Shown here in pieces: positions 21,047 to 33,741 of a stretch of DNA of 64,000 nt. The translations under genes were made by a program, and so were the position numbers. The notes below the pieces were generated by a model. That model did no database searches, was not told the DNA's origin, and saw only the letters and a list, made by a program, of their open reading frames with translations. Position 1 is the stretch's first letter. Each line of letters starts with the position of its first letter. Origin of the DNA: Alteromonadales bacterium alter-6D02 (GTDB lineage Bacteria; Pseudomonadota; Gammaproteobacteria; Enterobacterales; Psychrobiaceae); the NCBI GenBank assembly GCA_002835545.1, contig PIZK01000007.1, forward strand, positions 1 to 64,000. The letters are read 5' to 3'.

Positions 21047-21471
21047 TCGATTCGTTAACTGCTCTACAAAAGTTTCACAGTCATTGTGAAGTGACCCCCA
21101 GCCATTGGACATTCCGATGACTGGGGGTCTTTTTGTATTAAAGTATCAAAGGGGTTAATTGAACACTCACGAAGCGAACTCAGCAAATACACCCTCTCTC
21201 GACTAGCTACAGAGATAATTTTTCTAACCAACCTCCTTTACTCACTTTATCGATAAAAAAACCTCATTAAACACTAGCTTTATATACAGCCCTTTAGGTT
21301 TATTACAATTTGCAGCATTAACATACTTTTTTGACAGCTAATAAGAGGAAAGAAATAGCGAGAAACATATAATTAATTGTAATAAAAGCATATTTACGCT
21401 AAGTTTCTCTTTTAAAATCGGCTACGCGAGACGAACAAATATCGCGGTCGTCGCCGTACAATAAGCTGTTA
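20998..21471 (+). repeat. fabV-tail repeat, copy 1 (native), ending at cassette junction GTTA
   Basis: Covers the last 49 bp of fabV, its terminator and a ~330-bp AT-rich leader with no ORF, ending ATAAGCTGTTA. Copies 2 (24949-25421) and 3 (26624-27128) match it over this whole length, roughly nine bases in ten by eye. All three diverge immediately after GTTA, where a different cassette starts each time. Just upstream of the junction an imperfect inverted repeat (TACGCGAGACGA / TCGTCGCCGTA) could fold. The junction therefore behaves like an integron recombination point (G^TTA), attI-like or attC-like. Confidence 0.85.
21093..21135 (+). terminator. fabV rho-independent terminator
   Basis: GACCCCCAG (21093-21101) pairs perfectly with CTGGGGGTC (21121-21129), followed by TTTTT. 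It is conserved, with changes, in both downstream fabV-tail copies. Confidence 0.88.
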
Positions 21472-21519
21472 GCACTACAGGCAGGGTTAATCACAATCTG
21501 ATGAAAAGTTTTATACATA

Positions 21520-22725
21520 ATGTTATTTGATAAAGATCGTCACGAACCTCTCACCAAAACCTCATGGGATAAAAATATTGTGCAGGCAGAAATATCGTCA
21601 ATTATCGATGATATTCAGCGCTCACTATTACCTGATGCTTGTTGGCCCACGCATCCACTTGATGCAGAAAGCTACCCTAGAGTTGGGCCTAAATGGTCCG
21701 CATACGCAGGGGCTGCAGGCACAATTCACGCTTTACAAATCCTTAACGAATATGGATATAAAGTAAATGATTTGTCAGGGTTAATTGAAGGTGTTTACCA
21801 GTCTTTTTTGAAAACACCTGATGTATCAGTAGAGCCGGGCTTACAAATAGGTGAACTCGGCATACTAATGCCCGCAATGTTAGTGCAACCTGATAATGAA
21901 AAATTATCAAGACTAGTTATGCGATGCATGGAAGATACTATAGATCTTCCTCTGTATGAAATAACTTCTGGACAAAGTGGAATGATGCATGCTGCCCTAG
22001 CTCTTTATCGGAAGTCGGGTAAAAGTCATTGGAAAGATTTGTTTGTTAAGGGCGCAAAGTCATTAATGGATAACTGGACACAAGATACCGAGACGGGCGA
22101 ATGGCTTTGGCAAAGCCAAGTATTTGGGCCTAAGCGGCATTATTATGGTGCTTGCCATGGTATAACTGGCAATGCCAATATTCTTTTACAAGGCGCTGAT
22201 TTATTACCCGAGGGTTACACCGAAATGATAATTAAGCGTACGGTTGCTACTTTAAATATTTCAGTAAAACAAAAAGATAACTTAGCAAATTGGACGCTCT
22301 GTACTAAACCAAATATTGATAAATTGCTTGTTCAATGGTGTCACGGAGCAGCAGGTGTTGTTACAGCAATGTCAAGAACACCAGCGATTGATTCACCTGA
22401 ATCTAAACTACTTGATGAGTTGTTAGACGAAACGGGGGAGCTAGTTTGGCAAGCAGGGCCTCTCCTAAAAGGTTCTAATATCTGTCATGGGACATCTGGT
22501 AACGGTTACGCCTTTTTGTATTTGTACCAAAAAACGGGGAAGTCGGTATGGCTTGAGAGAGCAAGAAAATTCGCAATGCACTCTATTGAGCAGTGCCAGA
22601 AAGCACGCTTGCATTACGGGCAAGGCCGATTTACCTTATGGACTGGAGACGCTGGGCTTGCAATATATTTATATCATTGCATGTATCCTGAAAAAGCGGC
22701 TATACCGGGCTTGGATTTATTTTAA
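21520..22725 (+). CDS. LanC-like (lanthionine synthetase C family) protein, cassette gene
   Basis: 401 aa, an alpha/alpha-barrel LanC-like protein. All three zinc ligands are present: C274 (WCHG), C322 and H323 (CHGTSG). A further CHG occurs at 212-214. LanC enzymes add Cys thiols to dehydroamino acids; stand-alone homologues (LanCL-like) can act on glutathione or damaged proteins. No LanB, LanM or precursor peptide gene is nearby, so lantibiotic synthesis is unlikely. First cassette of the array: it begins 49 bp after the GTTA junction and is followed 8 bp after its stop by an attC. No strong ribosome-binding site is visible. Confidence 0.85.
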   Translation: MLFDKDRHEPLTKTSWDKNIVQAEISSIIDDIQRSLLPDACWPTHPLDAESYPRVGPKWSAYAGAAGTIHALQILNEYGYKVNDLSGLIEGVYQSFLKTPDVSVEPGLQIGELGILMPAMLVQPDNEKLSRLVMRCMEDTIDLPLYEITSGQSGMMHAALALYRKSGKSHWKDLFVKGAKSLMDNWTQDTETGEWLWQSQVFGPKRHYYGACHGITGNANILLQGADLLPEGYTEMIIKRTVATLNISVKQKDNLANWTLCTKPNIDKLLVQWCHGAAGVVTAMSRTPAIDSPESKLLDELLDETGELVWQAGPLLKGSNICHGTSGNGYAFLYLYQKTGKSVWLERARKFAMHSIEQCQKARLHYGQGRFTLWTGDAGLAIYLYHCMYPEKAAIPGLDLF

Positions 22726-22733
22726 GTATATAG

Positions 22734-22832
22734 TGCTAACAAGCTGTTAAACAAGGACAAAAACAGTTGGTTTTTGCTCCTTCGTCGCTTATTTTAATCA
22801 ACTATTTTTTGCCTGTTAACAGGGCGTTATGT
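22734..22832 (+). repeat. attC-like site 1 (~99 bp class)
   Basis: R''-like TGCTAAC at 22734 and R' GTTATGT at 22826-22832. The arms AACAAGCTGTTAAACA..CAAAAACAGTTG and CAACTATTTTTTGCC..TGTTAACAGGGCGTT pair with the unpaired spacer and bulges typical of VCR-like attC hairpins. It follows the LanC-like cassette gene. Confidence 0.85.
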
Positions 22833-22860
22833 GCCAGTAAGGATCGGAGATTACAGATAA

Positions 22861-23352
22861 ATGTCAGTAAAGAATATCAATGACAGGATCCCTTCCTACA
22901 AAAAAGCGTTTGCTAGCGGGGAAATACAAGAAATTTATCAAAGCCTTGTTGGGAGAATACAAGGTCTCAGAACAGAGTTTAATAAAAACTATAAGGGGCA
23001 ATTTTCGGTTGCAAATATACTACACGGCTATATCGACTTTACTTACTTTTATTTGCAAAACGATTTCCTTAAAAAACGTAAGCTCAAATTGGCAATTGTG
23101 CTTAATCACCAAGAAGCACGTTTCGAGTTATGGCTGCTGGGTCAAACAAAAGATGTACAGATCAACTATTGGAAAAAGTTACAGGGTGTTAGTTGGGTAA
23201 ACGAAAACTTAATGCCAGAGTGGTCTATCTTTGAAATTGTCATGCTTGCTAACCCAGATTTTGACAATCCCAAGGTTTTATCAGATTCTATTCAAAGTAA
23301 ATTTAATACTTTGTCAGAAGAGATTTTTGAAGTATTGAAAAAATATGAGTAA
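22861..23352 (+). CDS. uncharacterised cassette protein (163 aa)
   Basis: 163 aa, no signal peptide or TM segment, mixed alpha/beta composition with motifs GYIDFTYFY and ARFELWLLGQ. I do not recognise a characterised family; it resembles hypothetical proteins common in integron cassettes. The weak GGAG-like (GATCGGAG) is 12 nt before the ATG. The gene lies between attC 1 and attC 2 in the cassette orientation. Confidence 0.8.
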   Translation: MSVKNINDRIPSYKKAFASGEIQEIYQSLVGRIQGLRTEFNKNYKGQFSVANILHGYIDFTYFYLQNDFLKKRKLKLAIVLNHQEARFELWLLGQTKDVQINYWKKLQGVSWVNENLMPEWSIFEIVMLANPDFDNPKVLSDSIQSKFNTLSEEIFEVLKKYE

Positions 23353-23355
23353 TGC

Positions 23356-23410
23356 ACATAACAAACAAGAATAGGTGTCGCGCAGCCGACACCTTATTCG
23401 GGTGTTGGAC
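23356..23410 (+). repeat. attC-like site 2 (55-bp class)
   Basis: R'' ACATAAC (23356-23362) and R' GTTGGAC (23404-23410, fits GTTRRRY). Between them GAATAGGTGTCG pairs with CGACACCTTATTC, with a one-base bulge. Nearly identical sites occur at 26190, 28286 and 30180. Confidence 0.8.
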
Positions 23411-23984
23411 AAGCCCGAAGCCCTTCTTTTTATAGTAAATAGTGCAAGGTGTACCAGTGGTGATCAAGCCTAAATAATAAACTCAAGCCAAGTCGTGTTA
23501 GTGCATAACGTGTGTTCACGTTATATCAAGTGGTTAGCTATTTTTAGTTGTTGTTCTTCTCATATTGCTCCTCTCATTTTGTTGATGCCATTCTCCTTAT
23601 TCTCGGTATCGCTTAGCTGGTTCGCGTGATGCCACTTCAGTGGCAACAAGGACAAATGCGTTTAGCGCGTGGTGGTGTCGGTTGGAATAATTAAGGGACA
23701 TGCATTAATTTCCCTCTTCTCACTGGGCTTGTAATTATGGTGATATGTTTATGCCTGTCTTTTATTTCTTTCTGTGACGGGACGCACCTCGCGGACATAA
23801 GCATCAATGGTTGATGGGCGTTTACCTAGCACGCGAAGGTTGGTAAGATATTGTTGATAAAGGGTATTAAAGCGTTGTTGTTCGGCGGTGTTCATCGTGA
23901 TGTCTCCAGTTAAAACGCACCAAGTGGTGGTTTATCTGGTTAAGTATGAACAACCGCGAGTATACTCTGCCGCGGAGCGGCTTC
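23411..23984. mobile_element. decayed IS91-type element remnant (copy A)
   Basis: 574 bp between two attC sites. The left part (23411-23620) matches 26245-26380, which flanks a recognisable IS91 transposase C-terminus, and includes the sequence just beyond the transposase stop. Around 23665-23690 a scrap with the same TGGTGGTGTCGGTTG string remains. The right part holds the tyrosine-recombinase fragment. There is no intact gene. I infer an IS91-family insertion that lost most of its transposase. Confidence 0.6.
23749..23895 (-). pseudogene. N-terminal fragment of a tyrosine recombinase
   Basis: 48-aa minus-strand frame beginning MNTAEQQRFNTLYQQYL and containing LRVLGKRPSTIDAYVREVR, the N-terminal SAM-like DNA-binding segment of phage/IS91-linked integrases. 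It stops before any catalytic Arg/Tyr region, so it is non-functional. A similar start region recurs at 29465-29565. Such integrase genes commonly sit next to IS91-family transposase genes. Confidence 0.6.
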
Positions 23985-24086
23985 GTTCAACAAGAATTTA
24001 AAGCGGGACTGCTAACAGTTTGCTCGGTTTCGCTACGCTACACAATTTTAGCAAACTATTATCAGTCCCTTAAATGGGCGTTATAC
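23985..24086 (+). repeat. attC-like site 3 (~100-bp VCR-like class)
   Basis: R'' GTTCAAC (23985-23991) and R' GTTATAC (24080-24086). AATTTAAAGCGGGACTG..AGTTTGCT pairs with AGCAAACT..CAGTCCCTTAAAT, with extrahelical bases and a ~25-nt loop. Almost identical to site 6 at 27802. It precedes the esterase cassette. Confidence 0.85.
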
Positions 24087-24102
24087 GCAAAACGGAGTTT
24101 GG

Positions 24103-24939
24103 GTGAAATTTCTACCTTATATTTTCATATTTCTTTTCATTAATTCTATTCAATTAGTCAAAGCTCAAGATAGAAATACCTTTGAAATTCCTCGAAGTAA
24201 TGTTATCGAGATTCAAGATCCTGATTCCGGAAGGGTTTACCCTCTTTTTATAAAATTACCACGCTCATATAACAGCCAAGAAGATAAGTCATATCCTGTT
24301 ATCTACTTAACCGACGCATGGTATAGTTTCCAAATTGTATCTGGCGCTACTAGATTTCCAATGAATACAGGAAAAATGAAAGAGGCAATAATTGTCGGGA
24401 TTTCATACTCAAAAGGATCTAAAGGCCCCTCTAGTCGGATTCGTGACTATACTCATACTGAAGATTCAAGCTGGAAGTTTCAAACAGGAAAAGCGAAAGA
24501 ACATATTAGTTTTATTGAAAAGTCAGTTTTCCCTTTCATTGAAAAAAACTACAGAGTAAATGAATCTAGGACTTTTGTTGGTAATTCACTTGGTGGACTA
24601 TTTGGGGCATACATATTATTTACTAAACCTGATATGTTTAATAATTATGTCCTAGGCAGCCCATCTGTTTGGTTTAAAGATAATGATATTCTTAAAATTA
24701 AAACAGATCCTAATTTAAATAAGCACAAGGTGTTTATTGCTGTTGGTGCTAATGAGACTATTCAACTGGATTCGCCAAAACACGACATGGTTAAAGGTGC
24801 AAAGGAACTTGAGTTGAAGCTATCAGGTGAATTATTCCCTAATACAAAAGTAAAGCTATTAACTATTCAAGGCGCAAATCATGAAACTGCGTTCCCAACT
24901 ACTGCAATTCAAGGGTTGTATTGGCTGTTCAAAGAGTAG
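24103..24939 (+). CDS. secreted alpha/beta-hydrolase esterase (Fes/EstD-like), cassette gene
   Basis: 278 aa. A signal peptide (hydrophobic 3-19, VKA-Q) precedes an esterase-D-fold hydrolase: FVGNSLGGLFGAY carries the nucleophile Ser, and GANHETAFP supplies the C-terminal His. Relatives hydrolyse siderophores or peptides linked by esters; the substrate here is unknown. Start is GTG at 24103 with GGAG 5 nt upstream. It follows attC 3, but no attC follows: fabV-tail copy 2 begins 10 bp after its stop, so the cassette's own attC has been lost and integrase could not excise it alone. Confidence 0.85.
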   Translation: MKFLPYIFIFLFINSIQLVKAQDRNTFEIPRSNVIEIQDPDSGRVYPLFIKLPRSYNSQEDKSYPVIYLTDAWYSFQIVSGATRFPMNTGKMKEAIIVGISYSKGSKGPSSRIRDYTHTEDSSWKFQTGKAKEHISFIEKSVFPFIEKNYRVNESRTFVGNSLGGLFGAYILFTKPDMFNNYVLGSPSVWFKDNDILKIKTDPNLNKHKVFIAVGANETIQLDSPKHDMVKGAKELELKLSGELFPNTKVKLLTIQGANHETAFPTTAIQGLYWLFKE

Positions 24940-24948
24940 TGATAATTG

Positions 24949-25421
24949 CGACGCTGATACTAACCCACAAGTTGAATTTGACGTTATCGATATTTAATCG
25001 ATTCACTAACTGCTCTATAAAAGTTTCACAGTCATTGTGAAGTGACTCCCAGCCATTGGACACCCCGATGATTGGGGGTCTTTTTTTATTAAACTATCAA
25101 AGGGGTTAATTGAACACTCACGAAACGAACTCAGCAAATACACCCTTTCTCGACTGGCTACAGAGATAATTTTTCTAACCAGCCCCCTTTACTCACTTTA
25201 TCGATAAAAATTACATTGAACACCGGCTTTACATACTGCCCTTTAGGTTTATTACAATTTGCAGCATTAACATACTTTTTTGGCCGCTAAGTAAGAAGAA
25301 AGAAATAGCGATATACATATAATTGCTTGTAATAAAAATATATTTGCGCTAAGTTTCTCTTTTAAAATCAGCTACGCGAGACGAACAAATATCGCAGTCG
25401 TCGCCGTACAATAAGCTGTTA
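24949..25421 (+). repeat. fabV-tail repeat, copy 2
   Basis: Begins within the fabV coding end (ACGCTGATACTAACCC), keeps the last 48 coding bases and the terminator (25044-25087, one weakened pair), and runs to ATAAGCTGTTA at 25421. It is truncated from fabV, so it encodes nothing. It shares several variants with copy 3 and not with copy 1 (for example AAAAATTACATTGAACACCGG and TTTTGGCCGCTAAG), so copies 2 and 3 are closer relatives. Confidence 0.88.
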
Positions 25422-25439
25422 GGTACTCAGGGAAGAATT

Positions 25440-25883
25440 ATGCAATCCAAAGTATATAGATCGTTAGCTTTAGCATTTTCATTTGGTGTTATTTTTTATG
25501 CTCTATTGGTTACAGCTTGGGGTTATATCCCTCTATTTAATCCTATAACTAATTGGTTATTAGATAACTTTGCAGGTTATCAATGGATTAGTGCATTGAT
25601 TTATTTTCACGATTTTATACTAAATATTGTGTTGGGCTTTCCTTTGGCACTCTTAATTCATGTGCTAAAACCTAAGCGTTATTTATTGTATTTAGCGGTT
25701 GCTCTTTTGCCCGCTTTTATTTGGTCAAATAGCGCTTGGATCAATAATCCAAGTTTTTATGAGCATTGGACTTCAATTGTTATAGGGTGGGCAACAAGTC
25801 TTTTTAGTGTGCCAATAGCATTGTTTATAATTTGTTGGTATAACAAACACGTACCTAACAAGGGCATTAATCGGATTCCGTAA
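25440..25883 (+). CDS. four-TM membrane protein, cassette gene
   Basis: 147 aa, about four TM segments (9-28, 45-72, 83-97, 115-137), no recognised family. It begins 19 bp after the fabV-tail copy 2 junction, with GGGAAG 4 nt before its ATG. It is followed after 6 bp by a lipoprotein gene in the same cassette, so this cassette carries two genes. Confidence 0.75.
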   Translation: MQSKVYRSLALAFSFGVIFYALLVTAWGYIPLFNPITNWLLDNFAGYQWISALIYFHDFILNIVLGFPLALLIHVLKPKRYLLYLAVALLPAFIWSNSAWINNPSFYEHWTSIVIGWATSLFSVPIALFIICWYNKHVPNKGINRIP

Positions 25884-25889
25884 GCAGTC

Positions 25890-26195
25890 ATGTTTCGTGT
25901 AATATTTTCGTTCGTGATTATAATCTTAATTTTTGGTTGTAGTGATTCAACTCAACAACTTACTCCAAAAATGGAAAAAATGGCTACTCAAACTGTCATT
26001 AAATATTTAGAACGAAATGATTTACCGAATGAGAATTTGGTTGTATCAATATCAAAAAATAGAGCTATTGCCGATTTTTCATTCATGTATACAGGCAGTG
26101 GGCGTTGTATTAATTTTATTGTTAAGTGTTATGGAAATGACTGTACTAGTTTGCAAAAATATCCGTACGATGAGCACGGAGAAAAGTGCCCATAA
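25890..26195 (+). CDS. small lipoprotein, cassette gene
   Basis: 101 aa with a lipoprotein signal (hydrophobic 4-15, lipobox IFGC, Cys17). The mature part has several Cys (RCINFIVKCYGNDC), suggesting disulfides in the periplasm. No known family. The stop codon lies inside the R'' box of the following attC, a usual cassette arrangement. Function unknown; it probably shares a transcript with the membrane protein upstream. Confidence 0.7.
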   Translation: MFRVIFSFVIIILIFGCSDSTQQLTPKMEKMATQTVIKYLERNDLPNENLVVSISKNRAIADFSFMYTGSGRCINFIVKCYGNDCTSLQKYPYDEHGEKCP

Positions 26196-26244
26196 CAAAC
26201 AAGAATAGGTGTCGCGCAGCCGACACCTTATTCGGGTGTTGAAC
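26190..26244 (+). repeat. attC-like site 4 (55-bp class)
   Basis: R'' CCATAAC (26190-26196), R' GTTGAAC (26238-26244, fits GTTRRRY). The hairpin arms are the same as in site 2. The downstream ~35 bp (AAGCCCGAAGCCCTTC...) also match those after site 2. Confidence 0.8.
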
Positions 26245-26370
26245 AAGCCCGAAGCCCTTCCTTTTATAGTAAATAGTGCAAGGTGTTCACGTGATATCAA
26301 GTGGTTAGCTATTTTCAGTTGTTGTTCTTCTCATATTGCTCCTCTTATTTTGTTGATGCCATTCTTCTTA

Positions 26371-26622
26371 TTATCGGTACCGCTTAGCGCGTGGTGGTGT
26401 CGGTTGAGGGGCTGGAACGAGCCAGTATGTTAGCGATAACAACAGGCTGAGGATACGCAAGCGTAAGGCTTTGGCGTTACCGTGTAAAAAACCGTAATCA
26501 CGTACTCGCTGTAACCCCTTAGGCAGCACATGCTGCAAGATAAGCCATAAAAACTTGAGTGTAGGTAAGGTACGATACTTACGTGTTTTCGTTTGACTGT
26601 CTTGGTCGCTAAATGTCACGGT
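26371..26622 (-). pseudogene. C-terminal fragment of an IS91-family transposase
   Basis: Minus-strand frame with YRTLPTLKFLWLILQHVLP and GLQRVRDYGFLHGNAKALRLRI, the C-terminal signature of IS91-type (Y2, rolling-circle) transposases. It ends PRAKRYR at 26371. The N-terminal catalytic part is missing. The frame runs on to an ATG at 26646, but its first eight codons are antisense to the fabV fragment, so the junction at about 26623 is a breakpoint. IS91 elements can mobilise flanking DNA by one-ended transposition, which may explain how a fabV tail came to lie here. Confidence 0.8.
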
Positions 26623-26623
26623 A

Positions 26624-27128
26624 GACTGGGAACTGCGCGATGACATTCAACAAGCGTGTCGCGATATTTGGCCACAAGTTGAATTTGACGTTATCGATAT
26701 TTAATCGATTCGCTAACTGCACTACAAAAGTTTCACAGTCATTGCAAATTGCCCCCCAGCCATTGGACACTCCGATGACTGGGGGTCTTTTTTTATTAAA
26801 GTATCAAAGGGGTTAATTGAACACTCACGAAACGAACTTAGCAAATACACCCTCTCTCGACTGACTACAGAGATAATTTTTCTAACCAGCCCCCTTTGCT
26901 CACTTTATCGATAAAAATTACATTGAACACCGGCTTTACACTCTGCCCTTTAGGTTTATTACAATTTGCAGCATTAACATACTTTTTTGGCCGCTAAGTA
27001 AGAAGAAAGAAATAGCGATAAACATATAATCGCTTGTAATAAAAACATATTTACGCTAAGTTTCTCTTTTAAAATCAGCTACTCGAGACGAACAAATATC
27101 GCAGTCGTCACCGTACAATAAGCTGTTA
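26624..27128 (+). repeat. fabV-tail repeat, copy 3 (longer, with internal deletion)
   Basis: Starts further inside fabV than copy 2, matching fabV from 20849. It jumps from the first CCACAAGT (20897) to the second (21014), a clean 117-bp deletion between 8-bp direct repeats. It then follows the tail, the terminator (near 26750-26795) and the leader to AAGCTGTTA at 27128. It adjoins the IS91 transposase fragment on its left and a new cassette on its right. Confidence 0.88.
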
Positions 27129-27145
27129 TTTCGCTAGTGAGATTT

Positions 27146-27370
27146 ATGGACGACGTTGAGATTAAATTAACAAAGGATGAAGCATTAGTGCTTTTTGATT
27201 TCCTCTCACGTTTTTCCAACGAAGATAAATTGAGTATTCATGACAAAGCAGAGGAACGCGCATTGTGGAACCTAACCTGTTTATTTGAAAAGTCTCTTCC
27301 TGAGCCTTTTTCTAAAGAGTGGCAATCCATAATTGAAGGTGCGAGAAATAGACTGCGAGATGATACATAA
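27146..27370 (+). CDS. small acidic cassette protein (74 aa)
   Basis: 74 aa, starting MDDVEIKLTKDEALVLFDFL and rich in Glu/Asp, predicted helical, no TM segment. It resembles short hypothetical proteins widely found in cassettes and genomic islands. I chose the ATG at 27146, with GTGAG 4 nt upstream, over an in-frame GTG at 27137. First gene after fabV-tail copy 3. Confidence 0.75.
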   Translation: MDDVEIKLTKDEALVLFDFLSRFSNEDKLSIHDKAEERALWNLTCLFEKSLPEPFSKEWQSIIEGARNRLRDDT

Positions 27371-27375
27371 TCGCG

Positions 27376-27485
27376 AAATAACAAGCCCATGAAGGCTGAT
27401 TCGCAACGCTGTCACATTGATTGAAGAGAACAAAAGGCGCAATCAATACGCCAGCATTGCTCTCGGCTTATAGGGGCGGTATATT
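27376..27485 (+). repeat. attC-like site 5 (~110 bp, degenerate R')
   Basis: R'' AAATAAC (27376-27382). The right end GGGGCGGTATAT departs from GTTAT. The arms AACGCTGTCACATTGATT and AATCAATACGCCAGCATT pair well around a ~17-nt loop, and GGCTGA pairs imperfectly with TCGGCTTAT. Structure supports an attC with a mutated R' box. Confidence 0.65.
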
Positions 27486-27499
27486 TACGAGGAGATTCA

Positions 27500-27796
27500 G
27501 TGTTTTATTTCAAGCTCTATGATGACAAAAGGCTAAAAGATCTCAAGCATAGTAAGAAAATCGAGATCGTAAATAACGCAGTTAAGCTATATAGAAAAGA
27601 CAAACCATTAAATATCACTAGCCGATTATTAACCGTGTTAATTTGGTGTGGTATTCCTTCTTTAATATTATTTTTAGTATTCAGTTTCAGCTTTGCTATT
27701 GGTTGGCTTGCTCTATCCACATTCATCCTTAATATCAAATTAGCTAATGATGAAAGCGCAGATGTCGAAACTTACCTAAATCAGGTGTTAGAGTAA
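27500..27796 (+). CDS. small membrane protein, cassette gene (98 aa)
   Basis: 98 aa starting at GTG 27500, with GAGGAG 5 nt upstream. A basic N-terminal helix (1-45) is followed by one or two TM segments (46-80) and a short acidic tail. No known family. Lies between attC 5 and attC 6. Confidence 0.75.
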   Translation: MFYFKLYDDKRLKDLKHSKKIEIVNNAVKLYRKDKPLNITSRLLTVLIWCGIPSLILFLVFSFSFAIGWLALSTFILNIKLANDESADVETYLNQVLE

Positions 27797-27801
27797 TGTA
27801 A

Positions 27802-27903
27802 ATATAACAAGAATTTAAAGCAGGACTGCTAACAGTTTGCTCAGTTTCGCTTCGCAACACAATTTTAGCAAACTATTAGCAGCCTCTTAAATGGGCGTTA
27901 TGA
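27802..27903 (+). repeat. attC-like site 6 (~100-bp VCR-like class)
   Basis: R'' ATATAAC (27802-27808), R' GTTATGA (27897-27903). Arms, bulges and loop are almost the same as in site 3 (TTTAAAGC..GGACTGCTAA..AGTTTGCT / AGCAAACT..TTAGCAG..TTAAA). The most clear-cut attC of the array. Confidence 0.88.
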
Positions 27904-27937
27904 ATTTTTATTATTTAACTATACAAGGGATGTAAAG

Positions 27938-28291
27938 ATGTCTGAATTAGAAACAACAATTAGCTTATCTAGCAAAGATGATGCAGCGAAAACCAATGCT
28001 CTTATAGCTTACGGGCTCATGGGAGTTGGACTTTTTACTGGCATATTTTGGGTTATTGGCGCTATTTGGGCAATGGTAAAAAAAGATGATGCTGTAGGCA
28101 CTCTCTTTGAAGATCATTATTCAAATATAATTAATATTTTTTGGTGGGGTCTAGGGCTATCTATCATTGGCTTTATTCTTCTATTTTTTGTTGTTGGCTA
28201 TTTTGTTTTATTAGCCGTTTGGTTCTGGTCTGTTTATAAGTTAATAAAAGGCTTTTCTAAAATAACTTCAAACAAACCGTACAATTCATAA
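27938..28291 (+). CDS. DUF4870-like membrane protein, cassette gene
   Basis: 117 aa with about three TM segments. KTNALIAYGLMGVGLFTGIFW, the VKKDDAVGTLFEDHYSNII loop and the Trp-rich FWWGLGLS match the Tic20/DUF4870-like small membrane family. Function unknown. AAGGG lies about 8 nt before the ATG. The stop codon overlaps the R'' of attC 7. Confidence 0.78.
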   Translation: MSELETTISLSSKDDAAKTNALIAYGLMGVGLFTGIFWVIGAIWAMVKKDDAVGTLFEDHYSNIINIFWWGLGLSIIGFILLFFVVGYFVLLAVWFWSVYKLIKGFSKITSNKPYNS

Positions 28292-28340
28292 CAAACAAGA
28301 ATAGGTGTCGCGCAGCCGACACCTTATTCGGGTGTTGGAC
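28286..28340 (+). repeat. attC-like site 7 (55-bp class)
   Basis: R'' TCATAAC (28286-28292), R' GTTGGAC (28334-28340), same hairpin as sites 2 and 4. Right after it, 28341-28375 resembles the left arm of site 1 (GTTAAACAAAGGGCACAAAACAG), as if another attC half had fused here. Confidence 0.8.
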
Positions 28341-28381
28341 AAGCCCGTTAAACAAAGGGCACAAAACAGCAGGCTTGTGAA

Positions 28382-28528
28382 ATGTTAGAGTTAAAAAGTA
28401 ATATTGTATTTTTCAGTTCAAATAATAGCTGGATTCAGTTTTTTGCTTTTATGTTGGTGTTTGTTCCTGTTCATTTAGTTTTGACTTTAATATTCAAAAA
28501 GCTGGGTGTTTTGAAAACGAATAATTAA
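28382..28528 (+). CDS. possible 48-aa single-TM cassette protein
   Basis: Short frame MLELKSNIVFFSSNN... with one strongly hydrophobic stretch (19-41) and a basic C-terminus. No good ribosome-binding site and no family. Its stop overlaps the start of an IS remnant, so it may be a truncated gene. Cassette position and orientation are the main support. Confidence 0.4.
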   Translation: MLELKSNIVFFSSNNSWIQFFAFMLVFVPVHLVLTLIFKKLGVLKTNN

Positions 28529-28652
28529 GGGGCAAGCATGAATTTCCCCCTTCTCACTGAGCTTGTAATTATGGTGATATGTTTGTGCCTGTCTTTTATT
28601 TCTTTCTGTGATAGGAAGCACCGCGCGCGTATACTCTGTCACGAGCGGCTTC
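28522..28652. mobile_element. decayed IS91-type element remnant (copy B)
   Basis: AATTAAGGGGCA to TTTCTGTGATAGG matches 23690-23780 and 29353-29450. It then joins directly to the GTATACTCTG..GCGGCTTC segment that also precedes attC 3. The recombinase start region is deleted here. Non-coding. Confidence 0.55.
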
Positions 28653-28752
28653 GTTCAACAAGCGCTTCAAAAATGACGTCAAACGCTTGGCTGACGCTCA
28701 TTCTTCGCTAATTATAGCCAAGCATTATCCGCAATTTATGCGGGCGTTATGT
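28653..28752 (+). repeat. attC-like site 8 (~100 bp)
   Basis: R'' GTTCAAC (28653-28659), R' GTTATGT (28746-28752). CAAACGCTTGGCT pairs with AGCCAAGCATTAT, the outer arms less perfectly, with a ~25-nt loop. It precedes the GNAT cassette. Confidence 0.75.
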
Positions 28753-28829
28753 GCCCAGATATTTACTCCGAGAGTTGTCAACCTTACAAAATGTTGTAGG
28801 CAAAATCTCCAATATAGAAAGGAATTTAA

Positions 28830-29315
28830 ATGTACAAAATTCGTCAAGCTATGAAAGAAGACATTAGCCGTATGGCTGAAATAGAAGAAATTTGCTTTTC
28901 CGAGTCTGAAGCTGCGCCATTAGAGTCATTTAAAAAACGATTTTCAGCTTTTCCTGAATGTTTTTTTGTACTTGAGAGTGGTGGTATTGTTGTTGGTCAC
29001 ATTAACGGCTGTATCTACAATGCTCCGGAACTTCCTGATGCGTTGTATTCTGATAGTAATCTTCATTGCCCTCAAGGTGGATACCAAACTGTATTTGGTT
29101 TGGCAGTTGACCCTGAATACCAAAACCTAGGGTATGCATCGGCACTTATCAAATATTTTATTGCGTTTAGCCAAAACCGCAAACATAAAGGTATGGTACT
29201 TACTTGTAAAGATCACCTTGTTAAGTTTTACCAAAGCTTTGGATTTATTCATCAAGGTGTGTCGGATTCAAGTCATGGCGGTGCCCAATGGAATGATATG
29301 CTGTTAACTTTTTAA
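28830..29315 (+). CDS. GNAT-family N-acetyltransferase, cassette gene
   Basis: 161 aa. GNAT fold: the beta4-alpha3 acetyl-CoA motif is FGLAVDPEYQNLGYASALI (Q-x-x-G-x-A), then KFYQSFGF near the C-terminus. N-terminal RQAMKEDISRMAEIEEICFSESEA resembles arylalkylamine-type GNATs. The substrate is unknown; possibilities include polyamines, antibiotics or aromatic amines. GAAAGGA lies 6 nt before the ATG. Preceded by attC 8 and followed by a damaged attC. Confidence 0.85.
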   Translation: MYKIRQAMKEDISRMAEIEEICFSESEAAPLESFKKRFSAFPECFFVLESGGIVVGHINGCIYNAPELPDALYSDSNLHCPQGGYQTVFGLAVDPEYQNLGYASALIKYFIAFSQNRKHKGMVLTCKDHLVKFYQSFGFIHQGVSDSSHGGAQWNDMLLTF

Positions 29316-29336
29316 ATTAAGGCTCACACAATGAGC

Positions 29337-29689
29337 ACATAACAAACAAGAATCGAATAATTAAGGGGCAGGCAGGAATTTCACCCTTCTCACTGAGCTT
29401 GTAATTTTGGTGATATGATTATGCCTGTCTTTTATTTATTTCTGTTATACGACGCCCCGCGCGAATATAAGCCCCCATGGGTGATGGGCGTTTACCTAGC
29501 AAGCAAAGGTTGATAAGATGTTGTTGATAAAGGGGATTAAAGCATTGTTGTTCGGCAGTGTTCATTGCGAGTGCTCCAGTGATAGACCACTGACAGGTGG
29601 CCAGTCTGGATTAAGCACGAACAACTGCGCTGGCGCTCGTTCCTCGCTAATTTAGCCAAGTATAACCCACATTTCCTGCAGCGTTATGT
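29337..29689 (+). mobile_element. IS91-type remnant (copy C) between a left and a right attC half
   Basis: 29337-29354 is the left end of a 55-bp-class attC (ACATAACAAACAAGAAT), abruptly replaced by the AATTAAGGGGCA element (to about 29450) and the recombinase start region (minus, ATG at 29565). 29620-29689 is the right half of a long-class attC ending GCGTTATGT. The halves belong to different classes, so this is a rearranged junction, not one attC simply split by an insertion. Confidence 0.6.
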
Positions 29690-29708
29690 ATTTAGAAGAG
29701 TTCATTTG

Positions 29709-30176
29709 ATGTTTCAAAATTTGTTAAGAGCAGTTGTCATCTTGTTTTGTCTTTCAGGTTGTGCCGAAAGAGTCATCGATATTACTGATAAAGACGGTGA
29801 AGTCATCGGTGGTTGTAAAGCTGGTTTTGACTGGCACTTTTACGGCCTTCAAGACTCTATTGATTATATGCTTTATGAGTGTGCTAAAGACTCTATAGCA
29901 AAAGGGTTTACAATATCAGATGACAGGCTTCTAACCCTTGATTTCACTTTACCCTCACCGCCAGAAGGTGAGTTGTGGAATAAGAAACTCGCGATGCATC
30001 ATTTCCATAAAGAAAATATCACTGAAAGAGAACTAGGTTATATTCTTGCTGCTATAGAAAACGAGTATCAAAAAGTTGCTTGGCCAGCTGAAGATGATTT
30101 GGCAAGTGGTAAAATTACCAAGACTGAATTTATAAAAATAATTAAAGAAGCCAAATTCAAATGGCTTGGTGAATAA
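29709..30176 (+). CDS. lipoprotein of unknown function, cassette gene
   Basis: 155 aa from the ATG at 29709 (a TTG lies 3 nt upstream). Lipoprotein signal with lipobox LSGC (Cys about 18). The mature protein is mainly helical and charged, with Cys pairs; no family recognised. Last clear cassette gene: it is followed 3 bp after its stop by attC 9. Confidence 0.75.
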   Translation: MFQNLLRAVVILFCLSGCAERVIDITDKDGEVIGGCKAGFDWHFYGLQDSIDYMLYECAKDSIAKGFTISDDRLLTLDFTLPSPPEGELWNKKLAMHHFHKENITERELGYILAAIENEYQKVAWPAEDDLASGKITKTEFIKIIKEAKFKWLGE

Positions 30177-30179
30177 AAC

Positions 30180-30234
30180 ACATAACAGACAAGCATCGGT
30201 GTCTCGTAGCCGTCACCTCATTCGGGTGTTGGAC
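30180..30234 (+). repeat. attC-like site 9 (55-bp class), last of the array
   Basis: R'' ACATAAC (30180-30186), R' GTTGGAC (30228-30234). Arms CATCGGTGTC and CGTCACCTCATTC are more diverged than in the other 55-bp sites. The following ~40 bp still match the sequence after sites 2 and 4. Confidence 0.7.
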
Positions 30235-30703
30235 AAGCCCAGAGCCCTTCCCTTTATAATAAATAGTGAGGTGGGGCCAGTGATGAATAATCTAAGTGAT
30301 TAAGCTCAGCTTTTGTTTCAAACAATGCAGATGATGCCGGAGGCAACCGTACTATCTTTTTTAACTTTTAACATCTCAATATTTTATAAACAAAGTCTTA
30401 AACAAGCCCCAATAAATCATTAAAGTGACATATAACCATAATCGCTGGTACAACTCGACAGACAGAAGATAGCACCGGGTTACAACAGAACAACATCAAT
30501 GAATTAACCCTCAAAAACTGTGAGGTGAAATTAGCAACCTTTGAGGACGATTCAAACAACAAAGTAAAAATGACTTTTTCTGACCGTGTATTTGTCGCCG
30601 ATAGCATTTCTGTTAAACCTAGCCCTGATGGCCATTGCCATGTGAAACTATCAAACGGTTACAGTGAAACATAACGCAAGCAATTAGAAAACAAGGAGAT
30701 TCT
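30235..30703. other. array boundary region
   Basis: 469 bp after the last attC. The first ~45 bp repeat the post-attC segment. 30429-30674 is an open plus-strand frame (82 codons, ending VKLSNGYSET) without any start codon at its head, looking like the tail of a broken small exported protein. Nothing else is recognised. Confidence 0.45.
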
Positions 30704-31096
30704 GTGCTCAAATCTATCCATCACGTCGCTATCATTTGCTCAGATTATCAAAAATCTAAGCATTTTTATGCCTCAATTCTTGGCCTCGAAGTGATCGCTG
30801 AAAGTTATCGAGAAGAGCGTGACTCCTTTAAGCTCGATTTAAAGTTACCCGATGGTGGCCAAATTGAGCTATTTTCTTTTCCTAATTCACCTGATAGGCC
30901 AAGTTTTCCAGAAGCGCTTGGTTTAAGGCATTTGGCATTCAATGTCGAGTCAGTCGAGTGCGTTAGAGATTACCTGCTAGCTCATGGTTTGGATGTAGAG
31001 CCCATTAGGATAGATGAATTTACCCAGCGAAAATTTACTTTTTTTAGAGACCCCGACGGACTTCCATTAGAGTTATATGAGCAAGTTGACGGTTAA
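30704..31096 (+). CDS. gloA2: VOC-family protein, GloA2/YaeR-like
   Basis: 130-aa vicinal-oxygen-chelate (glyoxalase I fold) protein, close to E. coli YaeR (GloA2) throughout: HHVAII at the start, FYASILGLEV, the YREERDSFKLDL stretch, IELFSFP, GLRHLAFNV, and TFFRDPDGLPLELYEQ. The metal-binding His/Glu set is present. The exact substrate is unproven in this family. Start is GTG 30704 with AAGGAGA 5 nt upstream. Single gene right of the cassette array. Confidence 0.88.
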   Translation: MLKSIHHVAIICSDYQKSKHFYASILGLEVIAESYREERDSFKLDLKLPDGGQIELFSFPNSPDRPSFPEALGLRHLAFNVESVECVRDYLLAHGLDVEPIRIDEFTQRKFTFFRDPDGLPLELYEQVDG

Positions 31097-31187
31097 CATT
31101 CAAAGTGACAAGCAACAGGGGACACGTTCAGTGCCCCCTTAATATACATAATACATGATGCATTAATGTGTAAACTGGCAGCCAAAG

Positions 31188-31931
31188 CTACTTTACTAAA
31201 TGATTGTCTAACCAATTGACGATATTACTGCCTAACATGGTATCGCTATCTAATAACGGATAGCCATGCTCGCTGCCTTTATAAGAAATCAATTTGCTAC
31301 TCATGTTTGTCGACGCAGTAAACAATTGTTGAGCACTTTCATAAGTGCGGGTATCTTTCTCTGAGGCAATAATCAGCGTGGGTTTATCAGCTAGGTTATT
31401 CTTATAGTGAGTAATATTTTCCTTTCGTTGAGCTGAAGAAAAGAAAGCTATTGCATTAACCGAGTTATTTTTCGCTAATGTAATTGCTTGAGAGCCACCA
31501 CAACTTGCACCAACAACCCCAACGATGCTCTCTTTTGGCATTTTACTTTTTAGTGTATCGTAAGCTAATTGCACGTCTTGAGGCCAATGAGCATACATTT
31601 CTTGTAAAACTTTTGTTTGCTCTTCTCTTGGTAATGCTTCAACTTTTGCTTGTGTGAATTTGCCCTTGGCACTGTCACCATAGCCTCTAAAGTCTAGGCT
31701 TAATGCATGAATCCCCCGGTTCGACAATTGCTGCCCGATCTCGTTATACATAGTTCGATTGTAATTACACTGATGTAATAACAAAACGCCACGATTACTT
31801 GTGGTATTACTTTGGTAATAACTTGCTGCTAGCTCAAAGCCTTCGTCAGTCGTGACTGTAATATCCTGAGCTTGACTTGAAACTGATACCGCAAATAAAC
31901 CGATAGACATCATTTTTATAAGTTCATTCAT
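31188..31931 (-). CDS. secreted alpha/beta hydrolase (dienelactone-hydrolase-like)
   Basis: 247 aa with a signal peptide (MNELIKMMSIGLF...SSQAQ). Core: LLLHQCNYN (oxyanion region), GASCGG nucleophile elbow, SEKDTR Asp, and SEHGYPL His. Function unknown; similar proteins act on small esters or peptides. The start at 31931 is chosen because AGGAAAG sits just upstream and the signal peptide begins there; the frame is open to 31958. Confidence 0.85.
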   Translation of the reverse strand: MNELIKMMSIGLFAVSVSSQAQDITVTTDEGFELAASYYQSNTTSNRGVLLLHQCNYNRTMYNEIGQQLSNRGIHALSLDFRGYGDSAKGKFTQAKVEALPREEQTKVLQEMYAHWPQDVQLAYDTLKSKMPKESIVGVVGASCGGSQAITLAKNNSVNAIAFFSSAQRKENITHYKNNLADKPTLIIASEKDTRTYESAQQLFTASTNMSSKLISYKGSEHGYPLLDSDTMLGSNIVNWLDNHLVK

Positions 31932-32424
31932 AAACTTTCCTGTTTGTTGTATTGACACTTTTATTGTTCTTAAATCGTTTTGAAGATGTTAAGCCTTTCT
32001 TAGCAAGGTCTAAACCTAAGCAAAGTCTGAGCCAATACAATATTCCCTTAAATTTCAGTTGATTATAGTGTTATTTTTATTTTATAACCCCACCGATGTC
32101 CGGTAACGGACTTTTTTAGGCCTCTTAGTCTCATTTTCGGACTTGTCGTTAAAAAACTAGCATTAAGGTTAGCCTATGGTTGCCGCGTAATAACATCGGC
32201 CATTAGCTATTGTCTTAGGGGTATCACGGTCAAAATAAGTTACATAAGTATGCTTAAGTTCGTATTAAATAGATTTAAATACAAACAATTAAGGGCTCGA
32301 TGTGTTTCATCGTTTCAAGCGGATTACTGTTTGCCGTGACCAACATTGCATAGTAAATTATATGTTCTGCTAACCTCGCCAGTTCAGCTGTTTTTGAAAC
32401 ATACGAAACGAATAAGGAGATACG
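31932..32424. other. intergenic region, nothing recognised
   Basis: 493 bp between divergent genes. I see no ORF, attC or clear hairpin. AAGGAGA just before 32425 is the ribosome-binding site of the next gene. Confidence 0.5.
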
Positions 32425-33126
32425 ATGGGTGCTTGGGATGAAACGGCTTTAGGTAATGATGACGCGCTAGATTTTAAAACCCAATGGGATGATTTTATTG
32501 CAGATAATATTCAACGCTGGGGAGCCGAAAAAATTTATCGCTTTTATAAGGATATCTACTATGACGGGAAAATACCCAGTGATGACTTGGACTATAGCAA
32601 TGAGATTATCGCGCTAGGTCAGCTCTTTTTAGATAACGAGCTCGAGATCCCCAAAGCCTTAGTGCACGAGATATCTATCGTAGTTACGTTAAATCTAGAT
32701 CCTGATGAGCTTGACGAGTGGAATAGTCCGAGTAAAAGACGAACGTTTTTAAAAGGCTATCTTAACGAGATTGGTGGAGAGTTTAATAAATCGCTTATCA
32801 AAGAGTTGCATAAACCTGAAATTGAAAAATATAAAAATGAAATCAAAAACTATCGATTATTTTTTGAAAACATTGATGAAATAGTTCAAGTTAGAAAAAC
32901 CATGAAAAGCAGCACATTTGATTTAGTGAATAGCTTATACCCAGACATCGCAAAGACGTTGGATGAAATCTATGCACCATCGACGCCAGGAACTTATCGT
33001 TTTACCCTTGAAGTTGAAGCGTGGCGAACCAAGTTTATTGCATGGTGGACAGGTTTTATTCTAGAGTTGGAGCCTGAAGAAGTAATAAAGCTAATCGATG
33101 CTGCTGAACGAAAAAATACTACTTAA
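32425..33126 (+). CDS. hypothetical protein with DUF4259-like N-terminus
   Basis: 233 aa, soluble and acidic. MGAWDETALGNDDALDF matches the start of DUF4259 proteins (MG.W....NDDALD). The remainder, helical with an FTLEVEAWRTKFIAWWTGF segment, is not recognised. AAGGAGA lies 6 nt before the ATG. Function unknown. Confidence 0.75.
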   Translation: MGAWDETALGNDDALDFKTQWDDFIADNIQRWGAEKIYRFYKDIYYDGKIPSDDLDYSNEIIALGQLFLDNELEIPKALVHEISIVVTLNLDPDELDEWNSPSKRRTFLKGYLNEIGGEFNKSLIKELHKPEIEKYKNEIKNYRLFFENIDEIVQVRKTMKSSTFDLVNSLYPDIAKTLDEIYAPSTPGTYRFTLEVEAWRTKFIAWWTGFILELEPEEVIKLIDAAERKNTT

Positions 33127-33250
33127 CGAAACAGAACCCCACAATCATTGACTTTCTATTCACTGTATTGCTTCATTTGATAGTAGCAAAGCGGTGAGCG
33201 TTTTTTGTCAAAAATATGTAATGTTATATACCTAAGGAAAATTGTTATAA

Positions 33251-33496
33251 ATGTCAGATGTTGAATTTACAAATCAAGAAAAAGAGGCCATCGTTGAAAA
33301 GCTTCAATCGTATTTTGAGGCAGAGCTTCAACAAGAGATTGGTCAATTTGATGCAGAGTTTCTTTTAGACTTCTTTTCAAAAGAAGTTGGCGGATATTAT
33401 TACAATCGAGGGCTCCATGATGCGCGTGCCATCTTTGAGTCAAAAATCGAATTAATCGATGATGATATTTACGCCATTGAAAAAGAAGTTAGTTAA
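33251..33496 (+). CDS. DUF2164 family protein
   Basis: 81 aa. IVEKLQSYFEAELQQEIGQFD, AEFLLDFFSKEVGGYYYNRGL and DDIYAIEK are the conserved blocks of DUF2164, a small soluble family of unknown role. AAGGAAA lies upstream of the ATG. Monocistronic. Confidence 0.88.
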   Translation: MSDVEFTNQEKEAIVEKLQSYFEAELQQEIGQFDAEFLLDFFSKEVGGYYYNRGLHDARAIFESKIELIDDDIYAIEKEVS

Positions 33497-33542
33497 TACT
33501 GTTATAACTCTTATTTAAATAATAATGGGGGTCACAAAACGT

Positions 33543-33573
33543 GCACTTGACGGGCTTGCCTACGTTCAAGTGC
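33543..33573 (+). terminator. hairpin after the DUF2164 gene
   Basis: GCACTTGA (33543-33550) and TCAAGTGC (33566-33573) form a perfect 8-bp stem. There is no T-run, so termination is a guess from position. Confidence 0.35.
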
Positions 33574-33604
33574 GATTTAATTTACACTCACGGCCTTTTA
33601 TCCC

Positions 33605-33642
33605 ATTAACTGTAAACTTTTTCCCGCCTATTTACAGTTAAT
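33605..33642 (+). promoter_or_regulatory. 12-bp perfect inverted repeat upstream of the aminotransferase
   Basis: ATTAACTGTAAA (33605-33616) and TTTACAGTTAAT (33631-33642) are exact reverse complements separated by 14 nt, 100 bp before the start codon. The core TGTAAA/TTTACA half-sites are those of TyrR boxes, but the TyrR spacing is 6. It may be an operator or a hairpin. Confidence 0.5.
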
Positions 33643-33741
33643 GTTAAAAATAAGTTACTTTAGTCTCTATGCAGCTAAGGTAATCTGCGTTAAATTAATT
33701 GACTCTTGATTATAGAAAAAGATTCAGCAAGGAAATTCATT

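Follow-up and report, generated by a model that had tools for sequence, protein, structure and literature searches.

What does a LanC-like enzyme do when it is carried on an integron cassette, with no lanthipeptide machinery beside it? The question is raised by a gene in the window, by which we mean the whole 64,000-nucleotide stretch of DNA analysed here (Alteromonadales bacterium alter-6D02, contig PIZK01000007.1). In bacteria, LanC chemistry is described as making rings within peptides, and in eukaryotes as adding glutathione (PMC9934072); which of the two is the ancestral function has been called undecidable so far (PMC11251773). That bacteria have LanC-like genes which stand alone is itself no novelty: a 2020 survey left unclassified 1392 such proteins encoded away from any recognised lanthipeptide cluster (PMC7268733). 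In the open-licence literature, we found no relevant paper on a bacterial LanCL homologue and no relevant report of a LanC-like protein as an integron cassette.

The gene occupies 21520-22725 of the forward strand and is an open reading frame of 401 codons with an ATG start and no internal stops; its product matches PF05147 (LANC_like) with E 2.9e-36 and 125 bits, against a Pfam cut-off of 23.2. By junction and attC logic, it lies in a forward-strand cassette of 1358 bp at 21469-22826, running from TTAGCAC to ...AGGGCG. The upstream recombination point, G^TTAGCAC at 21468-21475 (+), reads GTTAGCAC, and these 8 bases are the exact reverse complement of the 5' end of the attC site at 22733-22740 (R''/R' 8/8). 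The attC itself (22733-22829, +) scores 86.2 bits (E 2.4e-14) with a covariance model built from 18 training sites, 12 of them from the host integron on contig C8, 6 from Colwellia sp. 75C3 and none from the window, and its bottom strand folds better than the majority of its shuffled versions (z -2.05). The unit thus has an attC downstream, R''/R' complementarity and a recombination point upstream, as an integron cassette should. The dN/dS values against the three nearest relatives are 0.135, 0.149 and 0.171, a range (0.14-0.17) which indicates that the protein is kept by selection. Hence, the LanC-like gene is an intact integron cassette under purifying selection, and the original prediction was right to place it on one. 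No Rfam family scored above its gathering threshold in the window. A phage origin of the gene was considered and rejected: phage records gave no match, and viral contigs yielded no confirmed relative. PADLOC likewise returned no match of the protein to a known anti-phage system.

The cassette is the first in an integrase-less array of about 12.7 kb (21060-33729) inserted between fabV and an aminotransferase gene, which begins at 33730. The site is empty in all four same-genus relatives examined (of 8 with a fabV match), where the aminotransferase gene follows fabV after 132-209 bp. Directly behind the LanC-like unit stands a cassette at 22827-23510 (+) encoding a DUF7000 protein (22861-23352; PF22526, E 2.2e-57); its attC starts near 23355 by junction complement, and its 3' limit, read by eye, is uncertain. 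Further forward-strand attC sites were found by the covariance model at 23984-24083 (73 bits), 27801-27900 (79.4 bits) and 28652-28749 (75.9 bits), with a weaker match at 27375-27481. When a junction was required to have the reverse complement of its 8-mer followed by AA, 200-1700 bp downstream, 6 of the 7 array junctions passed, versus 6 of 595 control GTTA sites elsewhere in the window on both strands. The sole failure is an esterase cassette at 24080, whose attC is missing and which has a copy of the fabV tail behind it.

The array contains two such copies, at 24939-25255 and 26624-26962, each made up of the fabV 3' end and the region downstream of it; their left ends differ, their right ends stop at a cassette junction, and the attC-less esterase cassette precedes the first. 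The right end of the insertion holds a glyoxalase-like gene (30704-31096), an alpha/beta hydrolase gene (31188-31958) and a further gene (32425-33126), with no clear attC. An integrase gene, intI, is found on another contig, C8 (384.6 bits, cut-off 265), with an attC array of its own; that integron, at C8:205000-223228, comprises intI and 17 attC matches that continue to where the contig stops. In its attC sites, its cassette junctions, the lack of intI nearby and the presence of intI elsewhere in the genome, the array resembles a CALIN, an integrase-less integron array (defined in PMC12444791), but it differs in beginning at a repeated head element of 217 bp that is also present on another contig.

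This head element (21256-21472, +) is the upstream partner of the LanC-like cassette, which has no attC directly before it. It recurs at 25228-25422 and 26935-27128 and on contig C4; the copies listed include L122:5776-5993. Its 39-bp core ends in AGCTGTTA, at the cassette recombination point. Allowing up to 3 mismatches, the core was listed at 9 places in 3 of the 9 genomes of the genus, and the reversed pattern at none. Different cassettes stand behind the copies. Six of the nine head-element junctions pass the fixed criterion used above (three in the window, and L127, L128 and L129), while L131, L132 and L134 fail, L132 having only 37 bases behind it. Away from the integrase, the element seems to offer cassettes a recurring site to land on or to follow, and could be attI-like or attG-like. 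A simple sigma-70 scan, a test that says little, found no promoter in it.

The LanC-like cassette also moves between genomes. When the cassette region was compared by blastn with 30 loci, homology to three marine genomes ended near the limits of the cassette: Colwellia sp. 75C3 (21468-22761, 91.2% DNA identity), Pseudoalteromonas sp. CIP111854 (21460-22796, 91.9%) and Cognaticolwellia mytili (21475-22743, 91.6%). In Colwellia sp. 75C3, the gene is flanked by attC sites to its left and right and sits inside a long attC array. The genus of the window organism appears to be none of these three, and its family comprises 9 genomes in one genus. Between genera the cassette is 91-92% identical, more than the 76-81% that fabV reaches inside the window's own genus, so recent exchange is indicated, and by this comparison of sequences the cassette is mobile. 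Its distribution is patchy: the host alone carries the gene among the 9 genomes of its family, and order-wide a match occurs in 4 of 394 genomes, host included, one of the four being weak and lying within an 892-residue open frame. A survey of LanC-like relatives for flanking attC sites, which had been proposed as a check on the original prediction, gave results that speak against the cassette reading for most of the family. With the host's own loci L090 and L091 excluded, an attC match at E <=0.1 was found in only 5 of 82 relative sources (L010, L011, L015, L017 and L018), and the remaining 77 had none at that threshold; so far as the attC model can tell, then, the bulk of the family consists of ordinary genes of the chromosome. 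One of the five sources, L018, is a MAG labelled Saprospiraceae; its attC sites lie on the opposite strand, and the contig may be misbinned.

We then consider which kind of LanC protein this is. Among solved structures, a search by sequence gave GCR2, LanCL1 and LanCL2 as the best matches (E 3e-26 to 3e-24) and no lanthipeptide cyclase at E <=0.01. An AlphaFold2 model (pLDDT 91.6, pTM 0.93), computed from a 37-row alignment of the window protein, 34 sequences picked from 80 family loci and two others, has the LanC alpha/alpha-toroid fold. In VIA-align, the predicted model is closest to GCR2 (Z 39.1; 2.8 A, 355 residues aligned), LanCL2 (38.4) and LanCL1 (37.6-38.0), with lower scores for CuvL (32.2), MadC (29.9), NisC (28.2) and CylM (24.7). 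The structure prediction called for at the outset therefore yields a LanC fold of the LanCL kind, as far as a model can tell. By sequence, by fold and by its WC-His-G motif (not WC-Tyr-G), the protein groups with eukaryotic LanCL1/2 and Arabidopsis GCR2. With these proteins it shares a stand-alone architecture, the same fold over 355-365 residues, the Cys-Cys-His zinc site, the acid His, the His after the first zinc Cys, Lys317 and a C-terminal end in the same register; it differs from them in being bacterial, in having 22% identity and in being cassette-borne in some strains. A tree of the C-terminal half unites the family (93/82) and places GCR2 with the family plus one Paenibacillus protein (98/91); because several long branches meet at the GCR2 grouping and one row (L008) was dropped for a missing motif, we take this tree as mild support only.

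The lanthipeptide cyclases fit less well. NisC, a class I LanC, has the same fold and zinc ligands, but it carries Tyr where the window protein has His, works with a LanB partner and scores lower by fold. Assignment to class I LanC was rejected on the His of WCHG in place of Tyr and on a genome-wide search that found no LanB in the host. The LanC domains of LanL (class IV) and LanM (class II) give the best NCBIfam models, and a LanL-like domain also has WCHG, yet the window protein is far under the curated cut-offs (LanL 94.5 of 650 bits, LanM 90.4 of 304, LanKC 67.8 of 575) and has no fused dehydratase, kinase or lyase domain; LanM, LanL and LanKC were rejected on these grounds. Within the same genomes, family members have WCHG versus WCYG in all six class I LanC genes (five genomes), and the host LanM has WCKG, so that the two kinds are separated without outside sequences. 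The view that the protein stands alone and is mobile is therefore supported, with the refinement that its relatives are the eukaryotic LanCL proteins and that its active site has His in place of the Tyr of class I LanC.

At the active site, residues were counted in the window protein and 80 relatives, kept from 173 loci; at least 173 relatives occur in bacterial genomes. LanCL1 is reported to hold zinc with C276, C322 and H323, to use H219 as the acid and H277 to stabilise the enolate, and to contact glutathione through R4, K317, H274, H323, R364, D367 and E374 (PMC9934072). The zinc ligands that the original prediction had listed, C274 (codons of C274 and H275, 22339-22344, +), C322 and H323 (22483-22488, +), are all present and align with those of LanCL1. 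C274, C322 and H323 are each found in 81/81 sequences, H275 (the counterpart of His277) in 80/81, and Gln (Q272) at the position of LanCL1 H274 in 81/81, but the two motif patterns used to gather the relatives contain the zinc motifs, which biases the counts over residues 270-277 and 322-329 and builds those for the zinc ligands, Q272 and H275 partly into the scan. The counts for H213, K317 and E147 are not: H213 (22156-22158, +), counterpart of the catalytic acid His219, is His in 81/81, and K317, which in LanCL1 contacts the glycine end of glutathione, is also kept in 81/81. Evidently, by comparison, the window protein carries the Cys-Cys-His zinc site, the acid His and the LanCL-type H275. 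Position 277 is always His in eukaryotic LanCLs and predominantly Tyr in bacterial LanCs, but it may be His, Lys or Asn in LanMs (PMC9934072); since some LanM proteins share it, His275 is no proof of LanCL function.

The remaining contacts diverge from LanCL1. In LanCL1, the glutamate of glutathione is held by R364, D367 and E374. These contacts are not kept: the window protein has H365, Q368 and T375 at the aligned positions, and Arg, Asp and Glu are missing there in most or all of the family. For this reason we call the protein LanCL-type and not a proven glutathione-binding LanCL. R7 (75/81) is a candidate counterpart of LanCL1 Arg4, judged from where the structural alignments start and not from displayed residue pairs. 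Outside the LanCL1 glutathione contacts, H8, W42, H45, E147, R370, W374 and D377 are nearly invariant (80/81 each).

Taking these features together with the cassette, we lean, with somewhat more confidence than doubt, towards a bacterial stand-alone LanCL-type enzyme on an integron cassette, one that would couple dehydroamino acids to a small thiol, probably glutathione; the thiol, the substrate and the biological role are what we infer here. Following the mechanism given for LanCL1 (PMC9934072), zinc would hold the thiolate of a small thiol, most likely glutathione, which would attack the beta carbon of dehydroalanine or dehydrobutyrine (Dha/Dhb) in proteins or peptides. The Dha/Dhb would arise by elimination from phosphoserine, phosphothreonine or cysteine, or come from outside. 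H275 would steady the enolate and H213 would protonate it, and a damaging electrophile would thereby be quenched; this would be an accessory function, kept in some strains only and passed around as cassettes are exchanged. The role first suggested for this gene, thiol addition to electrophile-damaged proteins, is consistent with the LanCL-type relationship and with the presence of gshB (glutathione synthetase) above cut-off in 38 of 45 genomes. The seven genomes in which gshB did not reach the cut-off are five Actinomycetota, one Colwellia MAG and the Saprospiraceae MAG; given the five actinobacterial members, either glutathione is not the thiol for all or the assemblies are incomplete. Likewise, since the glutamate contacts differ, the thiol may bind differently or may not be glutathione.

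A substrate other than damaged cellular proteins has also to be weighed. The protein could be a thiol transferase acting on small electrophiles or on foreign Dha/Dhb antimicrobial peptides, so that the cassette would be a detoxification or resistance gene. Cassette carriage and the patchy presence described above would suit such a role, as would the reports that human LanCL proteins add glutathione to lanthipeptide-derived peptides and also reverse the addition (PMC9993889). LanB scored above cut-off in 6 of 45 genomes, and in five of these a second LanC-like gene, with Tyr, adjoins LanB; in the sixth (G420), the LanB-like match is partial, covering positions 2-300 of 649, and a second LanC is absent. 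With class I LanB/LanC pairs in 5 of 45 genomes, Dha/Dhb peptides may well exist in these communities. The relatives in other Proteobacteria and Actinomycetota, however, have no visible link to lanthipeptide clusters or cassettes, and we regard this role as unlikely, if still worth keeping in mind. The class I pairs occur in marine Colwellia and Pseudoalteromonas genomes, one Pseudoalteromonas having two.

The near-invariant positions outside the glutathione contacts (H8 to D377, above) could also mean that the LanC fold has been re-used for ligand binding or another zinc role and carries out no Michael addition. Against this, the protein keeps the WCHG motif together with every zinc and acid residue, which makes such re-use rather improbable. 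We give still less credence to a narrower reading, in which the gene is a mobile defence against Dha/Dhb antimicrobial peptides (lanthipeptides, thiopeptides), acting by thiol addition with a thiol that is not glutathione in all members; in an alternative wording, the enzyme would remove the damage that such peptides cause.

A cyclase role requires a precursor and a dehydratase. Near the gene, in line with the original prediction, no Pfam match to LanB, LanM or transporter families was obtained among the eleven other scanned open reading frames of the 12.7-kb insertion. Elsewhere, the host has one class II LanM gene, on contig C3 (46221-51467), and its product has its own cyclase domain. The LanM dehydratase domain (DUF4135) is absent from all 43 other genomes searched, each of which carries a family member and which together represent 43 of the 80 loci; this negative is meaningful, since the same search finds the host LanM as a positive control. 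The possibility of a precursor elsewhere, named at the outset as the finding that would count against a stand-alone role, is thereby addressed in part. Around the 80 family loci there is no conserved partner gene, and the recurring neighbour clusters besides the family are, in our reading, mostly shadow open reading frames of GC-rich genomes; 35 of the 45 genomes have a single LanC-like match. That the protein forms lanthionine rings in an unclustered RiPP, with precursor and dehydratase elsewhere in the genome, is hence very doubtful, for although the host LanM and the 1392 unclassified proteins, a number of them suspected to be a new RiPP class (PMC7268733), speak for it, the LanM has a cyclase domain of its own, DUF4135 is absent from the 43 other genomes, LanB mostly comes with its own second LanC-like gene, and the neighbours are not conserved.

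Taken together, our analysis suggests that bacteria have a mobile form of a repair or detoxification step based on thiol addition. If thiol addition by this LanCL-type enzyme is indeed what the cassette encodes, bacteria would have a route to quench dehydroamino acids that is able to travel on integrons. With a widespread bacterial family of stand-alone proteins that bear the LanCL signature and lack dehydratases, the question of the ancestral LanC function becomes testable.
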